NCBI GenBank assembly: GCA_030549815.1
Contig: JAUQQQ010000006.1
Location: forward strand, 66,050-130,049
Source of the DNA: a bacterium
GTDB taxonomy: Bacteria; DRYD01
Length of the DNA stretch: 64,000 bases
Direction of reading: 5' to 3'
A model generated the notes under the pieces. It had not been told where the DNA came from and searched no databases. It was given only the letters and a program-made list of their open reading frames with translations. Both the position numbers and the translations under genes were made by a program. This document shows positions 1-2,004 of the stretch, one piece after another (position 1 is the stretch's first letter; each line of letters opens with the position of its first letter).

Positions 1-1
1 A

Positions 2-895
2 ACTGCTGCTATGCCATCGGGAACAGGATTAGTAAATTTTTCTAAAATTTTCCCAGATAGATTTTTTGATGTTGGTATAGCTGAGGAACATGCTGTTATA
101 TTTGCTTGTGGATTAGCTTTACAAGGATTAAAACCTGTCGTTGCTATATATTCAACTTTCTTACAAAGGGCTTTTGATATGTTAATTCATGATGTCGCTT
201 TGCAAAAAATCCCAATTCTTTTTGTTTTAGATAGGGCGGGAATTGTTGGTGAGGACGGACCTACTCATCATGGAGTTTTTGACATATCTTACTTAAGGAT
301 GATCCCAAATGTTCAAATTTTTGCTCCATCTAATGAAGTTGAATTAAGAAACATTTTATATACAGCACTCAATAAACTTGAAAAACCAACTTTCATAAGA
401 TATCCACGGGATTTTGTCGAAGGATTAGAAATCCAAGATTTTCAAAAAATCGATTTATACAAGTGGCAAAAAATTTATGAAACACAGGAAAATAAGTCTT
501 ACTCTAAAAAAGTAATGATTTTATCAACGGGAAGAATGAGGAGATTTATTAATTCTATTTCCAAAATTTTAGAAGAAAATGATGTGAATTTGAAAGTTTT
601 CAATTGTATTTCAATTAAACCATTGGATGAAAATGTTTTAATGGATGCTAAGGATTTTGATTTAATCGTTAGTTTAGAAGACAATATATTAGCTGGGGGA
701 TTTGGAAGTTATATTTTGGAATTCTTAAACGATAACGGAATATTTAAGAAAGTTTTGAGATTTGGATGGAATGATGAATTTATTGAACACGGTGCAATGA
801 ATGTTTTATTTAATCATTATGGGTTAGAACCTGTAAAAATATCGGAGAAAATATTGGCTGAATTTAATCAGGCTGTTATTATAAAAAGTGGATAA
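2..895 (+). CDS. dxs: 1-deoxy-D-xylulose-5-phosphate synthase, C-terminal half (5' end outside window)
   Basis: Dxs condenses pyruvate and glyceraldehyde 3-phosphate with thiamine diphosphate, the first step of the MEP isoprenoid pathway in the cytoplasm. The reading frame is open to the window edge: three codons (Thr-Ala-Ala) precede the first ATG and complete the family motif TAAMPSGTGL, so the ATG at 11 is internal. GIAEEHA carries the glutamate that activates the cofactor, GEDGPTHHG is the pyrimidine-domain signature, and the last 110 or so residues form the transketolase C-terminal domain. Roughly 300 of the usual 620 residues are present. The next gene begins about 100 nt downstream, so dxs probably ends its transcription unit. 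Confidence 0.95.
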   Translation, partial: TAAMPSGTGLVNFSKIFPDRFFDVGIAEEHAVIFACGLALQGLKPVVAIYSTFLQRAFDMLIHDVALQKIPILFVLDRAGIVGEDGPTHHGVFDISYLRMIPNVQIFAPSNEVELRNILYTALNKLEKPTFIRYPRDFVEGLEIQDFQKIDLYKWQKIYETQENKSYSKKVMILSTGRMRRFINSISKILEENDVNLKVFNCISIKPLDENVLMDAKDFDLIVSLEDNILAGGFGSYILEFLNDNGIFKKVLRFGWNDEFIEHGAMNVLFNHYGLEPVKISEKILAEFNQAVIIKSG

Positions 896-999
896 AAAAT
901 ATAAAAAACCTGATAATCTTTTGTTTTGTAGATTAATCTTTATCTTTAATTAGTAAGGGTTTTTTGTGCATTTTGTTTAAAGAATAAATAGGGGTATTG

Positions 1000-1446
1000 A
1001 TGATTTTTGATAACTTTTTTTCTAAAATAGTTTTATCTGCTATATTTTTTATCATTTTGTTAGGTATATTTTGGGTTTATTCACCTTATTCAAGTGATAG
1101 AATTTACATGGATTTTCTTAGCCAAATCAAGTTTATCAAAGAAATTGTTATTAATGGTCATTTAGATAACGGAATAATAAAGGATATTTCTAATGTTTTT
1201 AATGTTACCTATTGGGATAAGGATAAAATCATTTTGCTTTCTTCCTATAAGACTGATATAACTCTATATTTAGGAAAGAATATCTATGCTGAGATTAAGA
1301 CTGTTAGTAACGATGGTGTTGTACCTGTTAAAAGTATAGTTGATGTTGATAGTTTTTTAGATGATGGATTACCAAATAGTGGTATTATAAAATCTTTAAG
1401 TTCCAATTATTATTCTGGATGTGTTATTGTCGTGTCATTAAAATAG
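1000..1446 (+). CDS. Hypothetical single-pass membrane protein
   Basis: I do not recognise this 148-residue protein. It has one hydrophobic segment at about residues 10-27, followed by a polar domain that would lie outside the membrane. It has a single Cys, near the C-terminus. ATG at 1000 is preferred over the TTG three bases upstream because AGGGG at 990-994 is then at normal spacing. It lies between dxs and rpsK on the same strand, with over 100 nt on each side, so it may be monocistronic. A TTTTGTAGATTAAT stretch at 924-937 resembles the promoter-like motif seen elsewhere in the window. Confidence 0.65.
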   Translation: MIFDNFFSKIVLSAIFFIILLGIFWVYSPYSSDRIYMDFLSQIKFIKEIVINGHLDNGIIKDISNVFNVTYWDKDKIILLSSYKTDITLYLGKNIYAEIKTVSNDGVVPVKSIVDVDSFLDDGLPNSGIIKSLSSNYYSGCVIVVSLK

Positions 1447-1480
1447 TAATTTAGGTTTTTGAAAAACAGGGTAGTTTTGT

Positions 1481-1493
1481 TTTTTTGTAGAAT
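1481..1493 (+). promoter_or_regulatory. Putative promoter (T-tract plus GTAGAAT) upstream of rpsK
   Basis: TTTTTTGTAGAAT lies about 60 nt before the rpsK start. It matches a T-run plus GTATAAT motif repeated before the kinase gene (12258), rel (21450) and dnaK (40702). A -10 role is inferred from its likeness to TATAAT. No clear -35 is visible. Confidence 0.35.
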
Positions 1494-1551
1494 ATTTTAT
1501 ATTGTAGAGTGTAATGAAAGTAATTTTAAAAGCAATAATGGAGGTTAGTTT

Positions 1552-1936: not shown

Positions 1937-1991
1937 ACCGCTTGCTGGATAGAAGCGGTATATAAATTATCCAGCCCTTGTGAAAACAAGG
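1937..1991 (+). promoter_or_regulatory. Structured rpsD leader: interlocking hairpins, candidate S4 autoregulatory element
   Basis: Three perfect stems lie between rpsK and rpsD. Stem A pairs ACCGCTT (1937-1943) with AAGCGGT (1953-1959). Stem B pairs GCTGGATA (1944-1951), which fills the loop of A, with TATCCAGC (1968-1975), giving a pseudoknot or two alternative folds. Stem C is CCTTGT-GAAA-ACAAGG (1976-1991), with a GNRA tetraloop. AGGA at 1997-2000 and the rpsD ATG at 2005 follow directly. S4 is known to repress its own mRNA through structured leaders in several phyla, including a pseudoknot in Escherichia coli. The role here is inferred from position and fold. Confidence 0.6.
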
Positions 1992-2004
1992 AATATAGGA
2001 AAAA

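Follow-up and report, generated by a model that had tools for sequence, protein, structure and literature searches.

A pseudoknotted leader RNA upstream of rpsD belongs to a multi-copy family of putative cis-regulatory elements

A conserved, real pseudoknotted leader stands directly 5' of rpsD in the window (the whole stretch of 64,000 nucleotides that was analysed), and further copies of it are found 5' of dozens of other genes in this genome and its relatives. These RNAs probably constitute a new multi-copy family of cis-regulatory leaders, putatively ligand-responsive and acting at translation initiation, a reading that we hold with moderate confidence. Leader RNAs are usually tied to a single gene or pathway. 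In the present case a single compact knot, its core constant and its second stem free to vary, precedes about 25 different operons per genome, and is also found in distant phyla. If the copies sense one signal, they would make up a genome-wide post-transcriptional regulon built on a cis RNA, and the nature of the ligand would become a direct experimental question.

A pseudoknot in the rpsK-rpsD spacer

All features described here are on the forward (+) strand of the window. Between rpsK (S11, 1552-1932) and rpsD (S4, NCBIfam NF003717, 2005-2643), the spacer is filled by three stems, A, B and C. The rpsK stop codon is 1 nt 5' of a conserved A at 1934, which lies 4 nt 5' of CCGC and is an A in 133/142 copies of the family. 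Stem A (S1) pairs ACCGCUU (1937-1943) with AAGCGGU (1953-1959), the family core being CCGC 1938-1941 plus Y 1942 in the 5' arm, and R 1954 plus GCGG 1955-1958 in the 3' arm. Stem B (S2) pairs GCUGGAUA (1944-1951), which is free in sequence and paired in nearly all copies, with UAUCCAGC (1968-1975). Loop L3 (1959-1967) has the conserved form WAUAnAARW, here UAUAUAAAU; the string GCGGWATANAAA has its single match in the window at this loop, and the window as a whole carries one copy of the motif, at rpsD. Stem C (1976-1991), with arms CCUUGU (1976-1981) and ACAAGG (1986-1991), adjoins stem B and is this copy's version of an optional hairpin that adjoins S2 in the family. A linker of 13 nt (1992-2004; family median 15-16 nt) containing AGGA at 1997-2000 leads to the rpsD start codon.

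The earlier note on this DNA, made from the letters of the sequence, had described three perfect stems here, with the left arm of stem B inside the loop of stem A, no spacer between A and B on one side, and a GAAA loop in stem C. The stems are present as described, the 5' arm of A runs directly into that of B, the GAAA loop is at 1982-1985, and a pseudoknot with a score this high was found in 0/1000 dinucleotide shuffles of the spacer. Together, stems A and B form an interlocked H-type pseudoknot. The nested-only minimum free energy (MFE) of the spacer reaches only z = -1.97 because a nested fold cannot keep A and B together, and the nested MFE and centroid structures pick different stems.

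This disagreement between nested folds, and the direct contact of A and B with zero spacer in the window copy, would also suit a two-state switch, in which hairpins A and B are mutually exclusive and no pseudoknot forms. However, S1 and S2 can both form across copies, with an L1 of mostly 1-3 nt and an L3 of mostly 8-11 nt that suit an H-type knot, and a conserved A-rich L3 is typical of knots with a loop docked in the S1 groove (PMC11625349), making such a switch quite unlikely. The L1 of 0 nt results from counting stem A as 7 bp. In the family consensus, S1 is CCGC/GCGG plus one Y-R pair, followed by an L1 of about 1-2 nt (UU in the window copy), and thus stem A can do without its inner U-A pairs; the note had already allowed that a few pairs might open between A and B. 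It had left the choice between a pseudoknot and exclusive folds undecided: the pseudoknot is borne out by its conservation and compensatory changes, while exclusivity is not required, as the two folds need not exclude each other.

The ribosome site was predicted to follow stem C. AGGA (1997-2000) does so, but the longest anti-Shine-Dalgarno (anti-SD) match in the last 26 nt before rpsD, AAGGA at 1988-1992, is partly within stem C. In the window's genus, all four genomes have AAGG as their longest anti-SD match 5' of rpsD; it is located within or next to the 3' arm of stem C (window 1986-2004), and its aligned spacing of 9-10 is at the long end of the range among other window genes. With AAGG in its 3' arm, stem C possibly sequesters the SD in the rpsD leaders of this genus. 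As a general SD-sequestering hairpin it was rejected, since the hairpin is optional in the family, and about 15 nt of linker stay free in most copies. No transcription terminator was seen in the rpsD spacer.

The surroundings of the two genes are as follows. Window positions 1-1550 hold no rpsM before rpsK, the upstream sequence consisting of an ORF resembling the end of dxs and a 149-aa ORF that has a similar neighbour in G002. Further along the window, a xerC-like gene and dnaX come next after rpoA, in whose neighbourhood rplQ is absent.

Seven genomes represent the phylum in our genome set, six of them with rpsD, and the knot is directly 5' of rpsD in 6/6 (the window and all five relatives with rpsD), lying in the rpsK-rpsD spacer in G000-G003 and 5' of rpsD in G004 and G005. 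Stem A is nearly unchanged among them. Stem B is GCUGG/CCAGC in the window's genus and GCAAGAG/CUCUUGC in the sister genus; as it differs on both arms, it was rewritten with compensating changes. Stem C is variable within the window's genus (CCUUGU, CCCUU or CCC), and weak at best in the sister genus. The comparison of relatives proposed in the note has thus found compensatory changes in S2, with the knot kept throughout. No comparable knot was found before rpsD in other phyla (150 nt 5' of rpsD, about 85 loci).

Copy number, position and orientation

A covariance model built from the six rpsD leaders, with only stem A paired (R1), matched many further sites far from rpsD in the same genomes, where the same architecture precedes many genes. 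A second model that included the S2 pairs (R2) found 27, 26, 23, 11, 16 and 27 copies in the six genomes at E<=0.05, the E-values being rough (about 27 in the window's genome), and none in the sole genome of the neighbouring (sister) family. Most copies considered here come from six genomes of one family. No match to the GCTGG subtype was found in viral contigs.

The copies are strictly placed and oriented. With start codons set by rule, 137/139 parsed copies from the six genomes have a sense-strand ORF start within 60 nt, and this start is ATG in 136/137 cases; antisense ORFs of at least 100 aa starting within 60 nt number 0/134. Between the last structure and the start codon there is a median of 15 nt in copies with the hairpin and of 16 nt in those lacking it. 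An upstream ORF on the same strand ends at most 40 nt away in 74/136 copies, often at 0-10 nt in G000. A promoter or transcription start at fixed distance was considered and rejected, as there is only a weak, scattered excess of TATAAT-like sequences near the motif and no -35 element, and many copies are intercistronic.

In SD strength, the controlled genes are indistinguishable from background (p = 0.07 in six genomes; p = 0.90 in G000), so that the idea of the knot standing in for missing SD sites in these genes is not supported. SD strength being ordinary, a sequestration logic is not visible in most copies.

Conserved structure of the family

The near-constant letters of the family are the A at -4, CCGCY/RGCGG in S1 and W-A-U-A-N-A-A-R-W in L3. 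S2 has 63 different sequences among the 81 copies first fetched. Swapping 3' halves among 80 copies (a set unfiltered for S2 length or pairing) never restored the native pairing (0/10,000 permutations), and a pairing score of at least 14 was reached by 96% of native copies versus 20% of chimeras. Pairing was a selection criterion for some of the alignments; in one of these, with 23 copies, 97.6% of the S1 and S2 cells are paired, there are both-side changes in all six S2 pairs, and 0/500 shuffles reach the covariation score; when this alignment is slid by one column, the paired share falls to 40-45%. The outcome is unchanged for a set of 24 copies that also draws on other lineages, in which 99.6% of cells are paired. 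Covariation extends to the fifth pair of S1 as well (C-G, U-A).

Two further helices are optional. The hairpin adjoining S2 is found in 37/137 copies from the six genomes. A 5' helix, P0, is formed by pairing of L2 with the 5' flank, often in copies with a long L2 (at least 8 nt), where 0/10,000 partner permutations equal its pairing. There is no signal for P0 in copies with short L2, and it is absent from the window's copy and from the rpsD copies. P0 crosses both S1 and S2, giving the order A-B-C-A'-B'-C'. As is looked for in riboswitch candidates, the family has core nucleotides that are conserved and helices that covary, and it is located in 5' leaders.

Genes downstream of the element

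The motif is carried by 68 gene clusters, 66 of them in this phylum. Genes of translation include those for S4 (rpsD), S2, S15 (rpsO), L5, L7/L12 (rplL), L17, L31 (rpmE) and L32, as well as frr and asnS. Others are tig, rpoZ, ssb, recA, acpP, fabD, mdh, gapA, sufC, ispH, cutA and jag, and the genes for pyruvate phosphate dikinase, acetate-CoA ligase (acs), PRPP synthase and Csm2 (csm2). The motif precedes the same genes across species and genera, with seven clusters common to the two genera, and rpsD alone among the clusters carries it in every one of the six genomes. The presence of the same RNA before so many unrelated housekeeping genes resembles a general control element rather than a switch private to S4.

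The note had proposed an S4 switch. Autoregulation of S4 only was dropped after R1 had found tens of copies away from rpsD; the RNA also precedes dozens of genes that S4 does not target in any known system, and it has no Rfam match. A broader alternative is that the RNA is an S4-binding operator, through which rpsD is autoregulated and S4 acts as common repressor of the other copies. The presence of the motif at rpsD in 6/6 genomes, as expected of a regulator's own gene, points that way, as do the enrichment of ribosomal protein genes (8/66 clusters, P ~0.001, with gene totals assumed), the likeness of GCGGWAUAn to the 16S 530 loop, and the E. coli precedent, where S4 is an autoregulator binding a pseudoknot (PMC10931766). 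However, metabolic genes are the majority, seven clusters persist in both genera and thus rpsD is not unique in this, the Rfam S4 leaders give no match, and in three other phyla argG, glyQ, acsB, pdhA and paaK are downstream, never rpsD. We therefore consider an S4 regulon unlikely; for a ligand shared by every copy, S4 is one possible candidate.

The 530-loop sequence in question is GCGGUAAUAC (L112, G000), which resembles the invariant GCGGWAUAn, and GGCUAAC, held by some L2 inserts, also occurs in the 16S 530-loop region. Mimicry of the 530 loop is at most speculative, the likeness being a short one.

Several carriers are of interest individually. rplQ (L17), which is missing near rpoA in the window, has a knot leader of its own in the sister genus (L213 and L281; G004, G005). 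The CRISPR type III-A gene csm2 has the same leader (L171 and L269; G002, G003), which places a defence gene under the element. Makers or users of AMP or pyrophosphate among the carriers are argG, paaK, acs, glyQ and asnS, and further pyruvate phosphate dikinase, a membrane pyrophosphatase and PRPP synthase. This link may be a hint to the ligand, or may be due to chance.

G004 carries about 14 near-identical copies before unrelated genes (L182, L204, L205, L207-L212, L282, L283, L287, L295), with S2 GCAGACC/GGTCTGC and mostly with the hairpin CAAAAGTGTATA...CACTTTTG. Their similarity spans about P0 to the hairpin and the flanks are unrelated, so that it is limited roughly to the element, suggesting recent spread as a unit. 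Copies of this kind could also be produced by a dispersed DNA repeat (MITE- or REP-like), inserted between genes and having no role in the next gene. Such an origin is very improbable for the family, given the strict sense orientation (137/139, with antisense ORFs at 0/134), the fixed distance to the start codon, the retention of the motif by the same genes between species and genera, and the 63 covarying S2 sequences among 81 copies. Insertion without regard to the direction of the genes is not apparent, and no copies in both orientations away from start codons were seen.

Copies in other phyla

Among a few hundred genomes of other phyla the motif is rare, with single copies in three other phyla. 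It precedes argG in G147, pdhA in G409, acsB in G395 and glyQ in G404 and G406 (all one phylum), it is carried by the paaK leader in 4/4 genomes of the phylum of G118, and there is a weak match before a transporter-like gene in G187. Eight genomes matched at a threshold where about one chance match is expected. The copies have P0, S1 and S2, with an abutting hairpin in most, and rpsD is never downstream. L3 and A(-4) are kept letter by letter. When P0, the hairpin and the gene position are added to the match itself, most of these copies are convincing, that of G187 least. The simplest history would have a rare full form as the older state and a later expansion in the window's genus, during which P0 was lost.

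The letter-by-letter conservation bears on whether a ligand is needed at all. A constitutive element, i.e. a rigid knot that shields the mRNA from nucleases or positions the 30S subunit at internal operon starts, would be in keeping with the housekeeping gene set, the constant distance to the start codon and the close upstream ORF ends (at most 40 nt away on the same strand in 74/136 copies, often 0-10 nt in G000), and pseudoknots with a role in standby translation are known (PMC7708055). However, conservation of L3 and A(-4) in distant phyla exceeds what stability by itself would need, and SD strength is not below background. We regard a ligand-free role as possible but doubtful.

Proposed mechanism

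We thus favor a ligand-responsive leader. What the element does, namely act at translation, bind a ligand and change expression in one direction or the other, we infer from sequence comparison. The A-rich L3 probably lies against the nearly invariant S1 in the H-type pseudoknot, and the knot may be extended by P0, crossing both stems at the 5' side, and by the hairpin, stacked beside S2. The copies sit immediately 5' of the ribosome-binding region at about 25 genes in each genome, and this constant location, bordering on the initiation region from outside, speaks for an effect on translation initiation. The constant surface of A(-4), S1 and L3 argues for a common ligand, which could be a metabolite or an RNA-binding protein reading that surface. 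Folded or stabilised at the 5' border of the site where the 30S subunit lands, the knot would then change initiation at the next start codon. The downstream genes have no pathway in common, whereas those of a metabolite riboswitch usually do.

A bolder version can be advanced tentatively. The family may be a new riboswitch class, consisting of a three-helix pseudotrefoil (P0, S1 and S2 crossing) with a side hairpin, that occurs as single copies in several phyla and has expanded in one little-known lineage to a genome-wide control layer, through which a single signal would govern central metabolism, DNA maintenance and ribosomal proteins.

Comparison with known systems

Searches with Rfam 15, including the known S4 leader models as the note had proposed, gave nothing for the window spacer even at E=10, only chance matches up to E=5 for 20 other loci, and no match for eight loci of other phyla. 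No earlier description of the RNA was found in the open-access literature, and a prior description is possible.

S4 leaders, such as the E. coli alpha-operon pseudoknot and the Bacillus rpsD leader, are likewise structured RNAs directly 5' of an S4 operon gene, and that of E. coli is a pseudoknot overlapping translation initiation. The present RNA shares their position in the leader of the S4 operon, but it fits no Rfam model, and with 68 clusters it is not specific to S4 operon genes. The note had seen a distinct arrangement in a leader at this location. However, S4 leader candidates have been published for Bacteroidia, Flavobacteria, Clostridia and Fusobacteriales, those of Bacteroidia and Flavobacteria being listed for rpsD-rpoA-rplQ (PMC7247131), and thus a location directly 5' of rpsD is not new.

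The preQ1 class I riboswitch, like similar H-type riboswitches, is also a small H-type pseudoknot just 5' of the start codon with an A-rich L3, and docking of such a loop in the groove of the first helix is typical of knots of this type (PMC11625349). The present RNA differs in its conserved letters, its longer S2, its optional P0 and hairpin, its tens of copies per genome and its lack of a common metabolic pathway. Identity with preQ1-I was rejected, there being no Rfam model match and no queuosine genes downstream.

The c-di-GMP (GEMM) riboswitches are a class with many copies per genome before functionally diverse genes. They are alike in these two respects, although their fold is unrelated to that of the present RNA.

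Finally, the ABCABC topology is that of the pseudotrefoil, with 51 tabulated sequences against 1688 simple H-type knots (PMC3390330). P0 is optional in this family and missing in the rpsD copies, but where it forms, the P0-S1-S2 arrangement matches this topology, and the crossing helix provides natural examples of a rarely recorded knot.
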